A DNA stretch of 64,000 nucleotides. Source: Blastomonas sp. SL216. GTDB taxonomy: Bacteria > Pseudomonadota > Alphaproteobacteria > Sphingomonadales > Sphingomonadaceae. The notes under the pieces are model-generated. The model was given only the letters and a program-made list of their open reading frames with translations, was not told the origin of the DNA and searched no databases. Position numbers and translations under genes: made by a program. The DNA lies in contig CP113055.1 of the NCBI GenBank assembly GCA_026625625.1, positions 1,428,501 through 1,492,500 on the forward strand, read 5' to 3'. How positions within the stretch are numbered: the stretch's first letter is position 1; each line of letters begins with the position of its first letter. Positions 22,678 through 37,191 of the stretch are shown here, piece after piece.

Positions 22678-23115
22678 GTGACACAGCCCCAATCCGAGAC
22701 CGTGCCCGTCCAGGGCGCGCCGGTTGATCCGCCTTCGCCAGAGGCAGAGGCGGATCAACCCGGTCTCATCGAACAGCTGCACGGCCTGTACGCCGATGGC
22801 CGTGCGATGGTCGATGCCGAAGTCAGCTTTCAGAAGGTGCGCCTCGCCGCCGCAGGTCGGCAGATCCGCGCTATGGCGCTGCTTGCCTTTGTCGGCCTGG
22901 TGCTGATCGTCTGCGCGCTCATCGCGCTGGTCGTCGGCACGATGATCGCGCTGGTGCCGCTGATCGGTGGCTGGGGCGCGATGGGGGCAACGGTGCTGGG
23001 CTCGCTGCTGCTGGCGGTGCTGACCTTCTGGCTGGCGGCGCGGCGGATCGGCAAGATCAGCGCATTGTTTGCCAGCGATACCAACGATGATGAAGAAGCA
23101 AAGGCCGGTGCATGA
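22678..23115 (+). CDS. YqjE-like (phage holin superfamily III) membrane protein
   Basis: The 145-aa product has a polar N-terminal third, an amphipathic helix and two strongly hydrophobic helices (about 65-90 and 97-122) separated by GGWGAMGA. This topology fits the DUF1469/YqjE family, which is called holin-like but is not phage-linked. It starts with GTG at 22678 and overlaps the next gene as ATGA. The function is unknown. Confidence 0.75.
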   Translation: MTQPQSETVPVQGAPVDPPSPEAEADQPGLIEQLHGLYADGRAMVDAEVSFQKVRLAAAGRQIRAMALLAFVGLVLIVCALIALVVGTMIALVPLIGGWGAMGATVLGSLLLAVLTFWLAARRIGKISALFASDTNDDEEAKAGA

Positions 23116-23486
23116 CCGAGGCGGCTGAACACCCTGTTCCCGAACATGAAGACGATGGCGCAGAGACCCTGGCCGAGGTCTCCGCACGCCGACTGGCGGC
23201 GCGCAGCCAGTGGCAAATGGCGCTGGCCCGCGCCAAGGATCGCTTTGCGCCCGCCAATCTGCGCGAAGAGGCGATAGACACCGCCGCCGAGAAGATCGGA
23301 TCGGCCGCCGACAAGGCAGCGGGGCTCGCCTGGGCGCATCGCGGCAAGATTGCGCTGGCCGGCCTGCTGGGCGGGCTGTTCCTGGCGCGCAAGCCGATTG
23401 CCAAGAATGCCGGGCCGCTTGCAGCCAGGGCCAAGGACGGAGTCAGCAAGGCCGCGGCGAAGCTGCGCAGGTCCGGCAAGCCCTGA
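23112..23486 (+). CDS. YqjK-like hypothetical protein
   Basis: The 124-aa product is Ala/Lys/Arg-rich and mostly helical, with one short hydrophobic stretch (KIALAGLLGGLFLARKP, about residues 79-95) followed by a basic tail. Its position directly after the YqjE-like gene, with an ATGA overlap, points to a membrane-associated partner. Assignment to a named family is tentative and rests mainly on gene order. Confidence 0.65.
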   Translation: MTEAAEHPVPEHEDDGAETLAEVSARRLAARSQWQMALARAKDRFAPANLREEAIDTAAEKIGSAADKAAGLAWAHRGKIALAGLLGGLFLARKPIAKNAGPLAARAKDGVSKAAAKLRRSGKP

Positions 23487-23646
23487 TTGCCGCAAAACCT
23501 GCCCGGCATCGCTGCAACAGGGCTGGAAAATCCCGCAAAAGCTGATTATGGCGCAGCCCCAGCGCATAGGGGGCCGCACGCACGACCCCTTGCTTGGAGA
23601 GGATGCCGCCAGGCATCCGGATCATCTGTCAGGGACGCACATTCAC

Positions 23647-23871
23647 ATGAGCAAACTTCATCTCGTCATGGGCGGACGCGTCAGCGACCCGCAAACCCTC
23701 GATTATTGCGAACTCGACAAGATGGACCTTGTCGGCGTCTATCCCGATTATGCGAGCGCGGAAGAAGCCTGGCGCAGCAAGGCGCAGGCTACTGTCGATG
23801 ACGCCGAAATGCGCTATGTGATCGTGCACCTGCACCGGCTGCTCGACCCGGAAGAAAACCCGGCCGGCTAA
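23647..23871 (+). CDS. DUF4170 family protein
   Basis: The 74-aa cytosolic product begins MSKLHLVMGGRVSDPQ and contains LDKMDLVGVYPDYASAEEAW and MRYVIVHLHRLLDP. This looks like the small DUF4170 family common in alphaproteobacteria. The start at 23647 is the only ATG that gives the conserved N-terminus. The function is unknown. It converges with the rhomboid gene, 12 bases apart. Confidence 0.78.
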   Translation: MSKLHLVMGGRVSDPQTLDYCELDKMDLVGVYPDYASAEEAWRSKAQATVDDAEMRYVIVHLHRLLDPEENPAG

Positions 23872-23883
23872 GGGCTTCGGCTT

Positions 23884-24561
23884 TCAGGGAATATCGTGAC
23901 GCGGCCGCCGGATCTGGTGGCTGCGCACGAGCGGCACCGCGAGCAGCAGCCCCGCCGCAAAGCCGCCGATATGCGCCCAGATGGCAATGCCCAGCGCAGT
24001 CCCGGCAAAGGCAAGCTGGCTGAGCAGGTTGATGCCGACCCAGGCCGCCATCAGCCACGCCATGTGCACGGCAAGCTGCGGTATCGGCCCGATCGCGGGC
24101 GGCTTGCGGCGTGAAAACAGCAGGAAATAGGCGGCCATCAGCGCAGAGATCGCGCCGCTTGCGCCGACCACTGGCACCATCGACACCGGATCGATGGCGT
24201 AATGCACCCCGGCTGCGGCGATGATCCCCGCACTATAGAGCAGCAGAAAGCGCTCCCAGCCCAGCGCCATTTCCACGATCCGCCCGATCACCACCAGCAC
24301 CAGCATGTTCATCGCGAGATGAAACAGACCGGCGTGGAGAAAGGCCGAGGTAACGGGGGTCAGCCAGACCGGCACAACCCAGGGATAATCCACCGGCAAG
24401 GCGCTGGAATGCCCGTACAGGCTGTCATGCAGCCGCGCCGCCCAGAAACCCCCTTCGATCTGCATGGGCTCGGTCCAGCCGGTGACAATACCCACCAGCC
24501 AGACCAGCACATTCAATATGACCAGCGCGTTGGTCGCCGACCCGCGCGGTATGGGGGGCAT
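23884..24561 (-). CDS. rhomboid family intramembrane serine protease
   Basis: The 225-aa polytopic protein has a rhomboid core. HLAMNMLVL carries the conserved His and Asn of TM2, VVGASGAISA carries the nucleophile Ser in GxSG, and WAHIGGFAAG provides the catalytic His. All catalytic residues are present, so it is likely active in cleaving membrane-spanning substrates. It lies three bases downstream of greA on the same strand and is probably cotranscribed with it. Confidence 0.93.
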   Translation of the reverse strand: MPPIPRGSATNALVILNVLVWLVGIVTGWTEPMQIEGGFWAARLHDSLYGHSSALPVDYPWVVPVWLTPVTSAFLHAGLFHLAMNMLVLVVIGRIVEMALGWERFLLLYSAGIIAAAGVHYAIDPVSMVPVVGASGAISALMAAYFLLFSRRKPPAIGPIPQLAVHMAWLMAAWVGINLLSQLAFAGTALGIAIWAHIGGFAAGLLLAVPLVRSHQIRRPRHDIP

Positions 24562-24564
24562 GGT

Positions 24565-25041
24565 TCAGATGAACTCGATCTTGGACACGAGATAGAACTT
24601 GTCGCCCGAAGGCACGCTCACCTCGACTTCGTCGTCGAGCTGGCGGCCGATCAGCGCCCGGCCCAGCGGGCTCGAATAGCTGATGCGGCCCTTGCGCGCG
24701 TCAGCCTCGGCTTCGCCGACGATCTGATACTTCACCGGCTTGTCGTCTTCGTCCATCAGCGTCACGGTCGCGCCGAACACGATCTTGTCGCCCGAAAGCG
24801 TGGTCGGATCGATGATCTGCGCGCGGCTCAGCTTGCCTTCGAGATCGGCGATGGTCGCCTCGACCTGGCCCTGGCGCTCCTTGGCGGCGTGATATTCGGC
24901 ATTTTCGGAGAGGTCGCCATGCGCGCGCGCTTCCTCGATCGCCTCGACGATCAGGGGGCGCTCTTCCTTGAGCGCCTTCAGTTCGCGCGAAAGCTTTTCA
25001 TATCCTTCTGCCAGCATGGGCAGCTTATCGACGGTTGCCAT
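24565..25041 (-). CDS. greA: transcription elongation factor GreA
   Basis: The 158-aa product has the standard GreA size. An N-terminal coiled coil (to about residue 75) with its tip at [18 protein letters not shown] carries the acidic pair that stimulates RNA polymerase to cleave backtracked RNA. The C-terminal FKBP-like domain includes [13 protein letters not shown]. It follows carB on the same strand after 107 bases. Confidence 0.97.
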
Positions 25042-25101
25042 TCGGCATATCCCTTCTTCCTTGGCCGACGCCCGGCCAATCGTCCGACAATAATGCCTTT
25101 A

Positions 25102-25122
25102 GCGGCCCGGAAATGGGGCCGC
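25102..25122 (-). terminator. possible hairpin between carB and greA
   Basis: Seven-bp arms GCGGCCC and GGGCCGC close a seven-base loop. There is no U-run. It could end carB transcription or belong to the greA leader. Confidence 0.3.
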
Positions 25123-25148
25123 ATCAGGGTAACGACTTGTCGGGGGGC

Positions 25149-28502
<3,354 letters not shown>

Positions 28503-28565
28503 TGTTGTCGTGCTCTCTTTAAAGGCGTGAATTTTGTGTCAGGGCGGGGGCAGCAACGGGCATCG

Positions 28566-28937
28566 TCAATGCACCGTGCCGGTCTGGGCTTCGCAGCCCC
28601 AGCCATCATATTCGAGGTCGAACAGCTGCTCGATCTGCAGGCAGAGTTCGGTGAGCGCGCGGATCGACTTTTCATCGACCGCCTGCACCCGCTCCAGGAA
28701 CAGCCAGGGATGGCCGCCCTCGGCATCATCCTCATGCCCCAGCTCGGTCAGCCCCAGCTCCTCCGCGGCTTCGGACAGGCGCTCCAGATTCTCCTCGGAC
28801 CCGCGAAAGCTCACGTCCACCGAACGGCGGATGCTCGCCTGGTCGCCATTGTCGGCCAGATTGCGCAGCACGTCCTGATCGGCGGCCCATTCCTGCTCCA
28901 TCCGGGCAGGATCGACGGGGGGGAGCTTGAGAGTCAC
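28566..28937 (-). CDS. RraB-like protein (ribonuclease E inhibitor family)
   Basis: The 123-aa acidic product contains DQASIRRSVDVSFRGSEENLERL and a C-terminal LFDLEYDGWGCEA, both typical of the RraB/DUF695-like family. E. coli RraB inhibits RNase E and so changes mRNA turnover. It starts at GTG 28937 and overlaps the carA stop (GTGA), so it should be translated with carA. A 63-base gap follows before carB. A role in regulating car mRNA is possible but not shown. Confidence 0.75.
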   Translation of the reverse strand: MTLKLPPVDPARMEQEWAADQDVLRNLADNGDQASIRRSVDVSFRGSEENLERLSEAAEELGLTELGHEDDAEGGHPWLFLERVQAVDEKSIRALTELCLQIEQLFDLEYDGWGCEAQTGTVH

Positions 28938-30112
28938 GCGGCGGTCGCCGGAGCCTTGAGGCCGCTCACAAACTTCTCGAACAGGTAGAAGCTGTCCTGC
29001 GGTCCCGGCGAGGCTTCGGGGTGATACTGAACCCCGAACGCATTCTTGTCGGTGAACGCGATGCCGCAATTGCTGCCGTCGAACAGCGATACGTGCGTCT
29101 CGACAACATTGGCTGGCAGGGTCGCGGCGTCGACCGCGAATCCGTGGTTCATGCTGGTGATCTCGACCACGCCCGTTTCCAGTCGCTTGACCGGATGGTT
29201 CGCGCCTCGGTGGCCCTGGTGCATCTTGGTCGTGCGCGCGCCGGCAGCCAGGCCGAGCAGCTGATGGCCGAGGCAGATGCCGAAGATCGGCACATCCCGC
29301 TCGAGCAGGCCCCGGATCACCGGCACCGCGTACACGCCGGTCGCGGCGGGATCGCCCGGGCCGTTCGACAGGAACACGCCCGCAGGCTCCAGCGCGAGGA
29401 TCTCATCGAGCGAGGTCTTGGCGGGCACCACGGTCACCTTCGCACCGGCCTCAACCAGCGAGCGGAAGATATTGTGCTTGGCGCCGTAATCGATGGCGAC
29501 GACATGGGGGCGTGTCCCCTCGCCCATTTCGGCATAGCCAGCCCCCAGCGTCCATTTGCCGCCCTGCCAGCCGCGCGTGTCGGCACCTGTGACCTCGATC
29601 GCCAGGTCCATGCCCTCGAGCCCCGGCCAGCCCTGTGCCAGTGCGAGCAGCGCGGGCATGTCGAACACGCCATCGGGCGCGTGGGCGATCACGGCATTGG
29701 GGGCGCCTGCTTCACGGATGCGGCGGGTCAGCGCGCGGGTATCGATACCCGACAGGCCGATCTGGCCGTTCGCGCCCAACCACTCGCTGAAATGCTGGAC
29801 GGAGCGGAAGCTGCTGGGGTTGGTCACATCCTCGCGCACGATGCAGCCCAGCGCCTGGGGGACATCGGCCTCGATATCCTCGGGGTTCGCGCCGACATTG
29901 CCGATATGCGGGAAGGTGAAGGTGATGATCTGCCCGGCATAGCTCGGGTCGGTCAGGATTTCCTGATAGCCGGTGATCGAGGTGTTGAAGCACACCTCGC
30001 CCGTCTTGGCCCCCGCGGCACCAAAGCCCCTGCCCCAGATCGCGGTGCCGTCGGCCAGCAGCAACAGGCCGGTCGCGCCTTGGGGTTGAGCGGAGGTGGT
30101 GGCGTGCGCCAT
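28934..30112 (-). CDS. carA: carbamoyl-phosphate synthase small subunit
   Basis: The 392-aa glutaminase subunit supplies ammonia to CarB. The N-terminal domain includes GEVCFNTSITGYQEILTDPS. The class I amidotransferase domain carries the nucleophile Cys in FGICLGHQLLGLA and the catalytic His and Glu in GVQYHPEASPGP. The ATG at 30112 follows AAGGAAG at seven bases; the 37-residue extension was rejected. It is the first gene of carA, rraB-like, carB and is divergent from the GatB/YqeY gene. Confidence 0.98.
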   Translation of the reverse strand: MAHATTSAQPQGATGLLLLADGTAIWGRGFGAAGAKTGEVCFNTSITGYQEILTDPSYAGQIITFTFPHIGNVGANPEDIEADVPQALGCIVREDVTNPSSFRSVQHFSEWLGANGQIGLSGIDTRALTRRIREAGAPNAVIAHAPDGVFDMPALLALAQGWPGLEGMDLAIEVTGADTRGWQGGKWTLGAGYAEMGEGTRPHVVAIDYGAKHNIFRSLVEAGAKVTVVPAKTSLDEILALEPAGVFLSNGPGDPAATGVYAVPVIRGLLERDVPIFGICLGHQLLGLAAGARTTKMHQGHRGANHPVKRLETGVVEITSMNHGFAVDAATLPANVVETHVSLFDGSNCGIAFTDKNAFGVQYHPEASPGPQDSFYLFEKFVSGLKAPATAA

Positions 30113-30337
30113 GGATCGTCTTCCTTGCGTTGCGTATTGAGTCGCGAATATGCCGGGCCGCAGGATATGGCAGGACAAGGCCGGGCCAAAGCCCCGTGAC
30201 GCTTCCTGCCGGACAGCGGCCAAATTGGCGGGTCACTAGGCGCGCCTGGCTTGCACGGTCAATCTATGAAAAACATTTTTATCCGGCTAGGTTGGAAGCT
30301 TGTTCCAAAATCCACGGGAAAAGAAAGGTTCGCGCGC

Positions 30338-30796
30338 ATGATTCGCGATTTGCTGAAAGCTGCGCAGGTGGCCGCCATGAAGGCAGGCGACAAGGAGCGT
30401 ACGGCCGCTGTCCGGCTTATCCTGGCCAAGATCAAGGACCGCGATATCGAGCTGCGCACCCAGGCCGCGCCGGCCGATGACGATGCGATGGTCACCGAGG
30501 TGCTGCAGAAGATGATCAAGCAGCGCCGCGAATCGATCGCGATGTACGAACAGGGCGGCCGCGCCGAGCTTGCCGCGCAGGAAGCGGCCGAGGTCGCGGT
30601 GATCGAGGAGTTCCTGCCCGCCCAGATGGACGAGGCCGCCGCTAGGGCCGCGATCGCCAAGGTGGTCGCCGATACCGGCGCTGCCAGCCTCAAGGACATG
30701 GGCAAGGTCATGGCCGAGGTAAAATCGCGCCACGGCAGCGAACTCGACATGAGCAAGGCCAGCGCCTGGGTAAAGGAGGCCCTGGCGGGGGCTTGA
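30338..30796 (+). CDS. GatB/YqeY domain protein
   Basis: The 152-aa product has the YqeY fold, related to the tRNA-binding tail of the amidotransferase subunit GatB. It contains MIRDLLKAAQVAAMKAGDKE, MIKQRRESIAMYEQGGR and VIEEFLPAQMDEA. The start at 30338 is backed by AAAGG nine bases upstream; the upstream 29-residue extension is unlikely. The gene precedes dnaG and rpoD, its usual position in alphaproteobacteria. Its molecular role is unclear. Confidence 0.92.
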   Translation: MIRDLLKAAQVAAMKAGDKERTAAVRLILAKIKDRDIELRTQAAPADDDAMVTEVLQKMIKQRRESIAMYEQGGRAELAAQEAAEVAVIEEFLPAQMDEAAARAAIAKVVADTGAASLKDMGKVMAEVKSRHGSELDMSKASAWVKEALAGA

Positions 30797-30839
30797 GCGA
30801 TCACGCCCCTTTCCGTTTGTCCCGAGGCAAGCCACTCGC

Positions 30840-32717
30840 ATGACCCTATCCCCGCAATGGCTGGACGAACTGCGATCGCGGATCACGCTGTCCACGCTGA
30901 TCGGGCGGCATGTGAAGGTGCAGCGCGCAGGCCGCGAGTACAAGGCGTGCTGCCCGTTCCATAACGAGAAGACGCCCAGCTTCACGATCAACGACGACAA
31001 GGGGTTCTACCATTGCTTCGGCTGCGGGGCGCATGGTGATGCGATCCGGTTCATGACCGATCACCAGGGGCTGGGCTTCATGGATGCGGTCAAGGAGCTG
31101 GCCGCTGAAGCGGGGATGAGCGTGCCTGCGCCCGATCCGCGCGCTGCCCGTCAGGCCGAGGCGCGGGCCTCGCTGCACGATGTCTGCCAGGCGGCGCAGG
31201 ACTGGTTCGTGGCGCAGCTGAACAGCGCTGCTGGCGAGGAGGCGCGCGCCTATCTGAAGAACCGGGGGCTGACCGCCGAGACCATCGCGCGCTTCGGCAT
31301 CGGTTTTGCGCCCGACAGCCGCATCGGCATCAAGTCGGCGCTCGGCAATCTCGACGAGGAGCTGCTGGTCGAGGCGGGATTGCTGATCAAGGTCGACGAC
31401 AAGGCCCCTTATGACCGGTTCCGCGGCCGGGTCATGATCCCGATCCGCGATCCGCGCGGGCGCGTCATTGCGTTTGGCGGCCGCATTCTGGGGGCGGGTG
31501 AGCCCAAATATCTGAACTCGCCCGACACGCCATTGTTCGACAAGGGCCGCACGCTCTACAATCTGCACCTCGCCGCTCCCGCCTCGCGCCAGACCGGGCG
31601 CGTTGTGGTGGTCGAAGGCTATATGGACGTGATCGCGCTGGCCCAGGCGGGCTTTGGCGAGTGCGTCGCGCCGCTCGGCACCGCGCTGACCGAGCACCAG
31701 ATCGAGCGGCTGTGGAAGATGGTCGATCGGCCCCTGCTGTGCTTCGATGGAGACAATGCGGGGCAAAAGGCCGCGATGCGCGCCGCGACCCGTGCGCTGC
31801 CGCTGCTCAAGCCCGGCCTGTCGCTGGGCTTTGTCTCGCTGCCGGGCGGCCAGGACCCGGACGATCTGGTTCGCGCATCGGGCCCACAGGCCTTTGCCGC
31901 GTGCCTTGATCAGGCGACCGGCCTGCTCGACCATCTCTGGACGCACGAGCTGAACGCGGCTCCGCTGCAAAGCCCCGAGGCACGCGCCGGGTTGAAGGCG
32001 CGGCTCAATGCGCATGCCGACACCATTGGCGATGGCGACATCAAGGCGCTGTATCGGCGCGAGATCGGCCAGCGCTTTTCCGACCTGTTCTTCGCAGCGC
32101 GTACGCCCTCCCCCGCCCGTCCGGCGCAGCAACGCGGCGGCAGCGGCGGCGGCAAGGGCTGGCAGCGGCGCGACGAACCCGTGCCGCCGAGCGAGGAGCT
32201 GCGCGCCTTCAGCCGTCAGCCGATGAGCGACCTGATCGTGCGCGGCGTTATCACTGGCCTCATCCACCGCCCGCACCTCATCGGGCAGCACAGCGAGACA
32301 TTGAGCGAATTCGTCACCCTGGCCGATCGCTGGGCTGCGCTGCTCGATGCGCTGATCGATGCAGCGCATAGCCACGCATCGGGCGCTCTTGATCCGCCTG
32401 CACTGATGACCATATTGCATTCCAAGGGGCTGGCAGACGCGGTGGACAGGCTGAAAACGGGCGGAACGCCGCCTTTTTCCTTCTGTTCCGCCTGTACCGA
32501 TCCAGCCGACCAGTTGCGCGAGGTGCGGATTGCAGAGGACTTTGCCGAAGCGATCGAAGTGATGATCACCCGCCCCAGGCTGGAGGCGGCGCTGCAGGAT
32601 GTGACTCGCCGTTTCGAAAATGACATGCAAGACGGTTTGTTTTTGGAGCAGCAGCAGCTAAGGGCAAGAAAGGATGCGTTTGACCAGCGCCTGATTGAAT
32701 TGGCAGAGCGAGGCTGA
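30840..32717 (+). CDS. dnaG: DNA primase
   Basis: The 625-aa product synthesises RNA primers at the replication fork. The CHC2 zinc finger has C38, H41, C59 and C62 (ACCPFHNEKTPSF and HCFGCGAHGDAI). The Toprim catalytic core shows VVVEGYMDVIALAQAG and CFDGDNAGQKAA. A Gly/Ser/Pro-rich linker near residue 430 precedes the helicase-binding C-terminal domain. It lies between the GatB/YqeY gene and rpoD. Confidence 0.98.
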   Translation: MTLSPQWLDELRSRITLSTLIGRHVKVQRAGREYKACCPFHNEKTPSFTINDDKGFYHCFGCGAHGDAIRFMTDHQGLGFMDAVKELAAEAGMSVPAPDPRAARQAEARASLHDVCQAAQDWFVAQLNSAAGEEARAYLKNRGLTAETIARFGIGFAPDSRIGIKSALGNLDEELLVEAGLLIKVDDKAPYDRFRGRVMIPIRDPRGRVIAFGGRILGAGEPKYLNSPDTPLFDKGRTLYNLHLAAPASRQTGRVVVVEGYMDVIALAQAGFGECVAPLGTALTEHQIERLWKMVDRPLLCFDGDNAGQKAAMRAATRALPLLKPGLSLGFVSLPGGQDPDDLVRASGPQAFAACLDQATGLLDHLWTHELNAAPLQSPEARAGLKARLNAHADTIGDGDIKALYRREIGQRFSDLFFAARTPSPARPAQQRGGSGGGKGWQRRDEPVPPSEELRAFSRQPMSDLIVRGVITGLIHRPHLIGQHSETLSEFVTLADRWAALLDALIDAAHSHASGALDPPALMTILHSKGLADAVDRLKTGGTPPFSFCSACTDPADQLREVRIAEDFAEAIEVMITRPRLEAALQDVTRRFENDMQDGLFLEQQQLRARKDAFDQRLIELAERG

Positions 32718-32725
32718 GACGGCCG

Positions 32726-32742
32726 GGACCCGGGGGTCCTTT
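32726..32742 (+). terminator. short hairpin between dnaG and rpoD
   Basis: GGACC-CGGG-GGTCC followed by TTT makes a weak terminator-like hairpin. About 80 bases later a TATAAT (32824-32829) lies upstream of rpoD. No convincing -35 at the right distance was found, so a separate rpoD promoter is only possible. Confidence 0.3.
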
Positions 32743-32882
32743 CCGATCATTGCCACCGCGCCAGATCGGCACACAGGTTGACGCGAAATATTTGAAACGG
32801 CCCCATGCGGCCTGATAAGACAGTATAATTCGCTCTGGCCGGGACGCGGGCCTTGGTGAAACAGGTGACAGGAATTACGGAA

Positions 32883-34895
<2,013 letters not shown>

Positions 34896-35033
34896 ATAAC
34901 TACGTCGAGCGCGATCTGCTGGCGCAGAATAGAATAGCCCCAGTCATTCGGGAAATGCTTTACGCTTTGCATCTTAATTATTGAACATTAGCCACACATT
35001 GAATTCGATACCAGCGCTCAACTGCGACATTAT

Positions 35034-35678
35034 TCAACAGTCCTGGCAGAAGCTTCGATCAATAATATCATTTGAGGCATCGTCCCAACCTCGAGCAATC
35101 ACTGCTGCTCGGCGATACTTGTTAGGATGACTGGATGTATCGCGCTCACTCCCTATTGCCAATATCGCCGCCTGCGCAGCATCGGATGATGATCCTAAAC
35201 GCTGTAGCGCTTGCCCACTCCAGTAGTCAGCGTTGAGCTCTCCACGATGGGAATCAGTATCAAATCCAGCAATATGGTGACCAACTTCATGCGCAATTAC
35301 TTGAATTGCACTCCACTCCGTGCCGACTTGATCATTTAGTCTATCAAGGAAGTCCACATCAATACCTAATATTTTTCGCCCACCTGCAACGGTAGCATAA
35401 GCATTATCCTCGTCCTCGGTAATCAATATTCTGAAATCGTAGTCGAGGCCAAGCTCCTCCAATATTCTACGGACGATTTGTGGAACTCCAGAGCGATCGT
35501 TACCACGAGCTTCTCGAGTAACAAATTCTCTTCCGTATGCCGTCCATCCGTCTTCAAGGGAAAACCCGCAAAATGGGATCGCCCTTTGCGCATATACTGG
35601 CGTAACCAATCCGCCGCAGCATAGATCCGCCCCGCAAATCAAGCCGGAGGTAGCGAATGCTCGTCGAGTCAACTTCAT
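35034..35678 (-). CDS. exported M48-like zinc metallopeptidase, undescribed small type
   Basis: The 214-aa product has a Tat-like N-terminus (LTRRAFATSG) and a hydrophobic stretch ending near VYAQ (residue 31). The zinc site is HEVGHH (His130, Glu131, His134). A downstream GELNADYWSGQAL offers Glu147 as third ligand in the ExxAD form, and SSHPNKYRRAAVI resembles the HP...R block of M48-type gluzincins. Cysteines at 37, 211 and 214 could form a disulfide. It is coupled to the upstream gene by an ATGA overlap. The GC content is lower than in its neighbours. The substrate is unknown; the partner protein is a candidate. Confidence 0.72.
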   Translation of the reverse strand: MKLTRRAFATSGLICGADLCCGGLVTPVYAQRAIPFCGFSLEDGWTAYGREFVTREARGNDRSGVPQIVRRILEELGLDYDFRILITEDEDNAYATVAGGRKILGIDVDFLDRLNDQVGTEWSAIQVIAHEVGHHIAGFDTDSHRGELNADYWSGQALQRLGSSSDAAQAAILAIGSERDTSSHPNKYRRAAVIARGWDDASNDIIDRSFCQDC

Positions 35679-36121
35679 CGCGGCGAGAATCCCCTAGGCG
35701 TGCTGGGTATGCGCAGAACTACCGTCCGATCCTCATCATCTACTTCAAGTTCTTCGATAGATTCCTCGTCAATGCCATTTTCGATATCGGAATCCGCCGG
35801 ATTCCGGCGCTTTCGATTTCTATCATCTGTGGAGGCACACATGCTCACTAACTGCTGATACCAGCCGTTAATCAAATAAGACTGATTAGCATACCATTGA
35901 TTTAATTGAAGTAATTGTGAGTTTCCGCAATATGCATTGTAACCACAGCGCATTGGAATACCCTGATAAAGCTCGGCATTTGCCACTTGATTGACCTGAC
36001 CGGCATAAGCCTGCAGTTGATAAAGAGCACTGCCGCAAGTCGTGGACTGAGCAGATGCGGGCGCATTTATCGCTGCAGCGATCATCGTTAACGCCAACAT
36101 GGATTTTATGCCGTGCTCCAT
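35675..36121 (-). CDS. small exported four-cysteine protein, unknown
   Basis: The 148-aa product has a signal peptide (residues 1-25, ending PASAQ). The mature middle is rich in Gln, Asn and Tyr, with cysteines at 29, 59, 65 and 95. A polybasic stretch RNRKRR (101-106), an acidic tail (109-131) and a final TVVLRIPSTPRGFSPR follow. The ATG at 36121 follows a GGGGGA site. I do not recognise the family. Its stop overlaps the start of the HExxH peptidase gene, so it may be a substrate, inhibitor or chaperone of that enzyme (inference only). Confidence 0.6.
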   Translation of the reverse strand: MEHGIKSMLALTMIAAAINAPASAQSTTCGSALYQLQAYAGQVNQVANAELYQGIPMRCGYNAYCGNSQLLQLNQWYANQSYLINGWYQQLVSMCASTDDRNRKRRNPADSDIENGIDEESIEELEVDDEDRTVVLRIPSTPRGFSPR

Positions 36122-36183
36122 CACTTCCCCCACAAGTTTCGCTTAAAAATATCAGGCCAGAAAATTATGTCGAGTCATTTGGG

Positions 36184-36246
36184 AACACCGTTAGGGTGTA
36201 CGACAATCACAAAATGGCAGCATAAATTCCGGGAACATCGAGTTCC
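36184..36246. promoter_or_regulatory. two dyads upstream of the island gene pair
   Basis: ACACC-GTTAG-GGTGT (36185-36199) and GGAAC-ATCGA-GTTCC (36232-36246) are inverted repeats with five-base arms and five-base spacers. Their centres are about 47 bp apart, and they lie 60-125 bases upstream of the start at 36121. They could be operators. On the minus strand a CATAAT lies near 36165, but no matching -35 was found. Confidence 0.3.
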
Positions 36247-36372
36247 TAGGCCACAATGGATGATCACCGGATCACAGTACTTGACACTAAAGTCAGATAG
36301 TTACCGTATCCTCTGCGTAAAAATCCAGATTTGATACGCTACTCAGCTGTATCGAACCCTCGCCCCACAAAC

Positions 36373-37191
36373 TCAAGCCCTTACCTCTCCCCCCGCCTGC
36401 ACTGTAGCCACACGCCCCCGCCCAGTCACTTCCGCAAACTTCGCATGGTATTTCGGGTGCTCGGTGCCCATCCACTTGTCCCACCAGGTGAAATACAGGC
36501 CATAATTGGTGTTGAACCCGCCATTGTGGTGCAGGTCGTGGTGGACGGTGGTGTTGATCCAGCGGGTCAGCGGGGAGGACAGCCACCAGCGCGGGAAGAA
36601 TTCGAAGCCCGCATGGCCCATCGCGTTGCGGATGATCTGGAAGTTGAGCCAGGTGAACATCACCCAGCCAGGCGTCGGCACGAAGAACTGCCAGAGCGGC
36701 ACGAACAGGAACATCACCGCCGCTTCCGGCATCGCGAAGCTGTACGCGGCCCAGGGCGTCGGCGTGATCGAGCGGTGGTGTGCACGGTGGAAATGCTTGA
36801 ACAGCCGGGGATGGTGCATGAAGCGGTGCGCCCAGTAGAAATAGGCGTCATGCGCGATGATGATCCCGGCCAGGATCACAAGATCGATGCCCAGACCGAA
36901 GCCCTTGCCGAACACGCTGTAGAGCAGCCCGACCTCCTTGCCCCAGATCAGGAAACACGCGCCGATCACATAGACGAACACCGACTGCAGCGACTGGAGA
37001 AACTCGCGGCGCATATCGGCGGCCGTCGCCTCACGCGCCTGAATCTTGCGCGCCCGGATCGCGGTGCGTCTGAGCAGCCACACGACCGCAAAGGTCACCG
37101 ATGCGGCGATGAAATAGCGGCCGAAATCAAAGGCGAAAATATGGTGGCCCTTGGCGAGGAGAATATCGAGGGGCGGGAAACCTGTGGTCAT
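36373..37191 (-). CDS. sterol desaturase / fatty acid hydroxylase family protein
   Basis: The 272-aa membrane protein has several hydrophobic helices and the histidine clusters of the family: HDAYFYWAHRFMHH, HFHRAHHRS and HHDLHHNGGFNTNYG. These bind a di-iron centre that hydroxylates or desaturates lipids. The substrate is unknown. It starts at ATG 37191. The upstream gene on the same strand is a membrane AraC regulator, 93 bases away, which may control it. Confidence 0.9.
   Translation of the reverse strand: MTTGFPPLDILLAKGHHIFAFDFGRYFIAASVTFAVVWLLRRTAIRARKIQAREATAADMRREFLQSLQSVFVYVIGACFLIWGKEVGLLYSVFGKGFGLGIDLVILAGIIIAHDAYFYWAHRFMHHPRLFKHFHRAHHRSITPTPWAAYSFAMPEAAVMFLFVPLWQFFVPTPGWVMFTWLNFQIIRNAMGHAGFEFFPRWWLSSPLTRWINTTVHHDLHHNGGFNTNYGLYFTWWDKWMGTEHPKYHAKFAEVTGRGRVATVQAGGEVRA

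Follow-up and report, generated by a model that had tools for sequence, protein, structure and literature searches.

Two overlapping genes in a 64,000-nucleotide stretch of the Blastomonas sp. SL216 genome (hereafter the window) encode a predicted exported M48-type peptidase and a predicted exported partner protein of no known family. Because the same pair recurs in distantly related bacteria, the two proteins very probably work together. We tentatively favour the view that they form a mobile cassette, in which an exported single-domain M48-type peptidase is carried along with its own exported regulator.

An AT-rich island beside rpoD

The original prediction had singled out a low-GC stretch directly after rpoD that carries only two genes with an ATGA overlap, and both parts of this description were borne out, the first by composition and the second by ORF coordinates. 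The island (1.48 kb) has a GC content of 0.477 (47.7%) against a window mean of 63.9%, which corresponds to a z-score of -5.5 among 62,524 sliding windows of equal size (mean 0.639, sd 0.030); the lowest value found outside the island at that size was 0.595. Its genes depart from the two flanking genes in GC3 as well, with 0.41 for the peptidase gene and 0.47 for the partner gene versus 0.84 for rpoD and 0.83 for the hydroxylase gene. The island lies between rpoD, which stops at 34895, and a gene of the fatty-acid hydroxylase family (PF04116) on the minus strand, which ends at 36373, and it holds nothing but the partner and peptidase genes, both on the minus strand. The features discussed below are the following:

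34896..36372, no strand: AT-rich island (GC and z-score; empty site in G246)
35675..36121, minus strand: partner gene, 148 aa with ATG as start (152 with a GTG further upstream), no known family (ORF, profile searches)
36050..36121, minus strand: partner signal peptide, aa 1-24, Sec-type, as read from the sequence
35837..36049, minus strand: predicted two-helix hairpin of the partner, aa 25-95, with C29, C59, C65 and C95 (AF2, cysteine spacing, alignment)
35729..35836, minus strand: variable linker of the partner, aa 96-131, with RNRKRR and most of the acidic stretch (low AF2 confidence)
35678..35728, minus strand: conserved C-terminal tail of the partner, aa 132-148, RTVVLRIPSTPRGFSPR (pairwise identity)
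35675..35678, minus strand: ATGA in which the stop of the partner gene overlaps the start of the peptidase gene, also in PET50 (L028) and G826 (L036)
35034..35678, minus strand: peptidase gene, 214 aa, M48-type, single-domain, Tat-like signal (ORF, Pfam, AF2)
35586..35678, minus strand: peptidase signal peptide with RR, aa 1-31 (N-terminus read by eye)
35397..35405, minus strand: N92-A93-Y94, weakly aligned with BepA N105-A106-F107 (hhalign)
35277..35291, minus strand: HEVGH zinc/catalytic motif, aa 130-134 (motif)
35226..35240, minus strand: ELNAD, aa 147-151, with the presumed third zinc ligand E147 (motif, alignment)
35109..35129, minus strand: HPNKYRR, aa 184-190, the HPx4R plug motif with H184 as presumed His switch (motif)
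35037..35048, minus strand: C-terminal CxxC, aa 211-214, in four of five members (alignment)

An empty site was found in the same-genus genome G246, known so far from this one genome. Its RpoD is 97% identical to that of the window, and the dnaG-rpoD block and the hydroxylase gene lie there in the same order, with 142 bp between the aligned blocks (L068 8943 to 9086) as compared with 1,525 bp in the window, where homology to G246 ends at 34893 and starts again at 36419. Two further same-genus genomes were unusable as controls, since the 15 kb around the hydroxylase gene of G281 had no rpoD match and the hydroxylase region of G207 lies at a contig end. In the family scan, the eight other same-genus genomes gave no peptidase match at E 0.001, and a search of the SL216 genome itself (3.86 Mb, one contig) returned a single one. 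Given the composition of the island, its loss in G246 seems to us less likely than its gain in the window genome.

We saw neither insertion machinery nor clear repeats at the island edges. A signature of site-specific insertion was considered and dropped: the longest spanning repeat pair measured 16 nt at 81% identity (34982 and 36398), and by eye its shared core was not found in the G246 empty site. A promoter scan returned 2 promoter-like sites, as compared with 1.9 in shuffles.

The pair in other genomes

Besides the window, we found the pair in Sphingopyxis sp. PET50 (L028), in a Rhodospirillales MAG (L029), in G826, a genome of the MAG's family (L036), and on a plasmid of Hymenobacter sp. 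GOD-10R (L030). The carriers span Alphaproteobacteria and Bacteroidota, and in five out of five the two genes are adjacent with the partner first. PET50 and the MAG were detected through the peptidase, which is 78% identical to that of the window in PET50 and 63% in the best segment in the MAG (peptide-pattern scan, genome contigs), and in both the partner ORF lay directly upstream. The Hymenobacter pair, whose genes overlap, was found among plasmid records with either protein, and G826 with the partner profile, which matched 2 of 75 genomes, the MAG included; here the peptidase gene follows directly downstream. The junction is ATGA in the window, PET50 and G826, a 14 bp overlap in Hymenobacter and a 1-bp gap in the MAG.

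The neighbourhoods differ. In the window the pair lies on the chromosome, in PET50 between a GGDEF protein and TonB-receptor frames, in Hymenobacter on plasmid NZ_CP141190.1 (L070), and in G826 amid ThiF, ParB, RTX-repeat and terminase-like ORFs (L037 2469-11065), a region that is possibly derived from a phage or plasmid. That the two genes are chance neighbours without a joint function is barely credible: adjacency in this window alone would prove nothing, but the same order was kept in every carrier, in two phyla and in different surroundings. The functional pair suggested by the original prediction is well supported: the co-occurrence that it asked to be checked is seen in all five carriers, and their peptidases cluster in a tree (see below).

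A phage integrase was considered for an ORF beside the G826 pair and dropped, as the ORF gave no Pfam match. The Hymenobacter plasmid carries, at 22707-35641, genes annotated as DUF262, phospholipase D family, DEAD/DEAH helicase, PAPS reductase family and DUF4007, which look like defence or DNA-modification clusters. Furthermore, a 416-aa hypothetical protein (L030 6594-7844) with hydrophobic N-terminal stretches and only sub-threshold Pfam matches is encoded 20 bp after the Hymenobacter pair; no counterpart was noticed beside the other pairs.

Between the window and PET50, identity is 78% for the peptidases and 82% for the RpoDs. For an accessory protein such a value is high, and it would fit horizontal movement without proving it. 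The pair has a GC content of 0.488 in the window and of 0.559 in PET50, where the 10.6 kb locus has 0.649, and in both it is AT-richer than its surroundings. In the three other carriers the values for pair and local DNA were 0.692/0.709, 0.419/0.420 and 0.719/0.672. Low GC is therefore not a hallmark of the module everywhere, as it holds in the window, partly in PET50 and not in these three. In a substitution count, synonymous sites were saturated or near-saturated and protein-changing sites differed less in both genes, with the exception of the partner's linker, which differs about equally at both kinds of site in the comparisons with the MAG and G826. These comparisons draw on five known pairs, two of which are fairly close (78%).

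Few genomes in the collections that we used carry the pair. Searches with the partner matched 1 of 298 genomes in the family (single sequence), 1 of 398 in the phylum, 1 of 385 in the class and 1 of 346 in the order, the single match being in each case the window's own genome; around the MAG they matched 2 of 75 (family) and 2 of 76 (order), namely the MAG and G826. The search sets overlap, and in several of them part of the first-look candidates was scored, so that weak relatives may escape. Peptidase-based plasmid searches returned 6, 6 and 5 records, with the partner present only in that of Hymenobacter.

The sporadic spread of the pair, the ParB and terminase-like genes near it in G826 and a plasmid with genes that by product name look like defence or DNA modification would all be in keeping with a pair for competition or defence, in which the peptidase would act against other cells or against phage entry and the partner would confer immunity. 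We consider this improbable. PADLOC gave no match at E 0.01 (peptidase best at E 0.029, peptidase_U41; partner none up to E 1), no delivery domain was matched in the pair, and there was no match in phage records (E 0.001 for the peptidase, E 0.1 for the partner) or in pattern-based scans of viral contigs.

The peptidase

The motifs and the profile support the prediction of an M48-like peptidase, which would be zinc-dependent. In the window protein, the Pfam M48 family (PF01435) scored 29.1 bits, above its curated cut-off of 20.3, and all five peptidases matched it at E 1 or better. All five also contain HExxH-x(30,140)-HPx4R, and HExxH-x(30,140)-H-P-x(4)-R is given as the M48 pattern in PMC7950410. 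At motif level, the third-ligand Glu is found within ELxAD in five of five. The predicted exported 214-aa protein with HEVGHH (aa 130-135), ELNAD and HPNKYRR had thus been described correctly, and its kinship to M48 is supported by the Pfam score together with the HPx4R motif. The cut-offs of YpfJ-type families were missed (PF04228, 17.6 vs 23.2 bits; NF050010, 23.2 vs 250 bits).

The mature enzyme is a bare catalytic domain of 183 aa. A twin arginine occurs in the signal of four of the five peptidases, that of the window included, and we read both the peptidase and the partner as probably exported. Among the AF2 models, made from three sequences, the best reached a pLDDT of 76.3 and a pTM of 0.79, the other four 45-57. 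The top Foldseek matches were BepA chains (6ait; probability up to 0.99, best E 0.044, none at 0.001), and hhalign of the peptidase against BepA gave 16% probability and E 0.0016. With the peptidase sequence profile no PDB chain was matched confidently, HtpX being the best at E 0.59.

Outside the pair, the family-level scan found a peptidase match in 24 of 396 other genomes. The ten strongest relatives (E 6e-15 or better) are 30-37% identical, and the others match over shorter stretches, at E 1e-4 or weaker; together with one plasmid locus, the ten make up the 11 nearest outside relatives, at 29-37% identity overall. Pfam M48 was above cut-off in 8 of these 11. A C-terminal TPM domain (PF04536, over cut-off) was likewise present in 8 (L003, L005-L007, L009-L011 and L031), and three (L002, L004 and L008) have a single domain. 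In the eight fusion relatives an M48-like domain with HE(I/V/L)(A/G)HH and HPx4R is joined to the TPM domain. We had also considered a fusion of partner and peptidase, but the long frames of the relatives proved to be TPM fusions in 8 of 8 scanned.

The M48-like relatives share HE(I/V/L)(A/G)HH and HPx4R with the paired peptidases; they differ in that most carry TPM, in their position in the tree and in their flanks. In a tree of 16 sequences, the five paired peptidases stand together on one side of a branch with support 100/100, although the tree has two long-branched rows and leaves 7 of its 13 inner branches unresolved. In the examined flanks of the 11 less related loci, the partner profile matched no ORF (at least 50 aa, E 0.001).

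The partner

The profile and structure searches proposed for both proteins led to M48 (Pfam) for the peptidase and to no family or fold for the partner. Pfam, run with all five partners, gave at best E 0.011 (DotA, in one of five members); with the window partner, NCBIfam gave no match and PHROGs at best E 0.35; a 4-row partner profile reached E 0.85 against PDB sequences, and the search of PDB folds E 2.2. Kinship with LprI (PF07007) was considered and rejected, the family being absent from the Pfam matches of the five partners up to E 10 and hhalign of the partner alignment against one LprI protein of the own genome giving 0.1% probability.

Four cysteines are aligned in all five partners, and the spacing C-x29-C-x5-C-x29-C is exact in four; the Hymenobacter partner has an insertion, a different spacing and two extra cysteines. 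In the AF2 model of the mature partner, helices at 5-35 and 39-72 bring the cysteines to matching ends, with an overall confidence of 70.7, near 90 in the hairpin and below 50 at 74-107. Disulfides C29-C95 and C59-C65 would follow from this arrangement, and several invariant Q, Y and W residues sit on the hairpin. Mean pairwise identity is 0.45 in the hairpin, 0.24 in the linker and 0.51 in the tail (aa 132-146), so the tail matches the hairpin in conservation and the linker does not. The tail follows the pattern V-x-(I/L)-x-IP-x4-G(F/Y), with V134, I138, P139 and G144 invariant and a second proline in four of five partners. It is because of this sequence pattern that we call the tail a strand; in the AF2 model it has a pLDDT of 68-69 and a two-residue bridge near its start only, with no real strand.

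The original prediction had described a protein of 148 aa with four cysteines, RNRKRR and an acidic stretch, all of which are present, the cysteines in the mature part. However, what is conserved are the cysteines and the tail: the polybasic stretch is confined to the window and PET50, the five partners do not share an acidic stretch, and we do not regard either as a functional signature.

Comparison with known systems

An operon of an exported metalloprotease and a co-encoded partner is of a known kind, and the M48 peptidase with this partner family appears to be a new form of it. The earlier claim that no described system has this pair holds insofar as we found no description of an M48 peptidase with this partner family in the open-licence papers searched; it does not hold for the organisation as such, known from bamI-mep72, aprA-aprI and the mtz-tim genes of Listeria.

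AprI is a beta-barrel inhibitor whose N-terminus enters the zinc cleft. AprA-AprI resembles our pair in combining an exported zinc metalloprotease with a co-encoded specific inhibitor (PMC3161968), and differs in that the enzyme is a serralysin secreted by the type I route and the inhibitor gene lies downstream. In BamI-Mep72 of Pseudomonas aeruginosa, the partner gene comes first and the exported metalloprotease second, and the partner has predicted unfolded regions; the two genes are co-transcribed, and BamI binds Mep72 and counteracts the toxicity of that enzyme (PMC4334185). Mep72 is a type II secreted metzincin with a carbohydrate-binding domain, and the likeness to our pair is one of organisation. 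As in operons of this type, our pair consists of neighbouring genes for a metalloprotease and a partner, both exported as read from the N-termini, and the two genes stay together in five of five carriers. Mtz-Tim of Listeria is likewise a pair of a secreted metalloprotease and an exported partner, and is phage-associated, but it comprises a metzincin and a TIMP-like lipoprotein, and the partner is reported to be cleaved (PMC8235301).

As for M48 peptidases themselves (BepA, LoiP, YcaL and HtpX; PF01435), the paired enzymes resemble them in HExxH, the downstream ExxAD Glu, the HPx4R plug, the weakly aligned N-A-(F/Y) of the edge-strand region and predicted export. They differ in being short, in having no TPR domain and in their co-encoded partner, and the distance from the first H to the E is 16-19 positions as against 65 in BepA.

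A proposed regulator in trans and its alternatives

M48 peptidases of E. coli watch over the assembly of the outer membrane and of membrane proteins, and their switching is an open question centred on the internal plug. No dedicated protein inhibitor is known to us for any M48 enzyme. An exported partner dedicated to one small M48 enzyme would give a simple handle on regulation from outside; such a pair would offer a new inhibitor or adaptor family, and would be a clue to its occurrence both in two phyla and on a plasmid as well as amid phage-like genes.

The original prediction had suggested a substrate, an inhibitor or a propeptide-like protein as the partner of the enzyme, and each of these may still apply. 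We propose that the partner, which we infer to be exported via Sec and to fold as a disulfide-stapled helical hairpin, binds the peptidase, and that the flexible linker would give the conserved tail its reach. The tail would add as a strand to the edge strand of the peptidase, in or near the zinc cleft, and would hold the enzyme off or aim it, acting as a propeptide in trans. Zinc peptidases take up their substrates through strand addition at the edge strand, as described for BepA, in which the His of the HP motif is a zinc-binding plug or switch. We favour blocking, because the tail has a conserved proline and BamI-Mep72 provides a precedent for a partner-first operon; the proline of the invariant IP, and the second one where present, would resist cutting of the tail. 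Once released by a redox change, a substrate or proteolysis, the enzyme would be free in the periplasm or in the extracellular space. Spelled out in full, as a horizontally moving stapled hairpin of a new family that places its C-terminal strand in an M48 cleft in trans and serves as an outside regulator atop the HP-motif plug, the proposal is one that we hold with slightly more reserve than the cassette with its own regulator as such. Moreover, the HP plug alone could control the enzyme, in which case the partner would not be needed.

A linker followed by a conserved tail is equally expected of a processed substrate, and this provides the main rival to a regulator: the partner may be a dedicated substrate that the enzyme cuts within the linker or the tail, setting free the hairpin, or a short peptide from the tail, as the active product. 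A flexible, variable linker beside a conserved end would suit such processing, and the Listeria metzincin Mtz reportedly cuts the TIMP-like protein encoded with it, whose release causes the effect (PMC8235301). On the other hand, the tail contains the proline, and no conserved cut site is present in the linker across the five partners. We regard the substrate as possible, albeit unlikely.

The partner might instead serve as an adaptor or specificity subunit and deliver targets to a very small peptidase without accessory domains. In BepA this is the task of the TPR domain, which contacts substrate and the Bam complex. The bare catalytic domain of the enzyme and the hairpin's invariant Q, Y and W residues would agree with such a role. 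However, our data indicate no third component or target, and the partner also resembles a compact inhibitor, for which reasons an adaptor seems to us decidedly unlikely. A regulator acting in trans thus stays our preferred, tentative reading.

Further observations on cysteines

In the signal region of the G826 partner (L036 1456-1917), the residues LAAC could form a lipobox, and this copy may be a lipoprotein. The G826 peptidase is the one member without CxxC. Just past the peptidase signal, C37 (35568-35570) is invariant in five of five, and in the presumed mature G826 enzyme it is the sole cysteine. A lone cysteine at this position would be better suited to a cysteine switch than to an internal disulfide; such a switch is described for Wss1, another small zinc peptidase.
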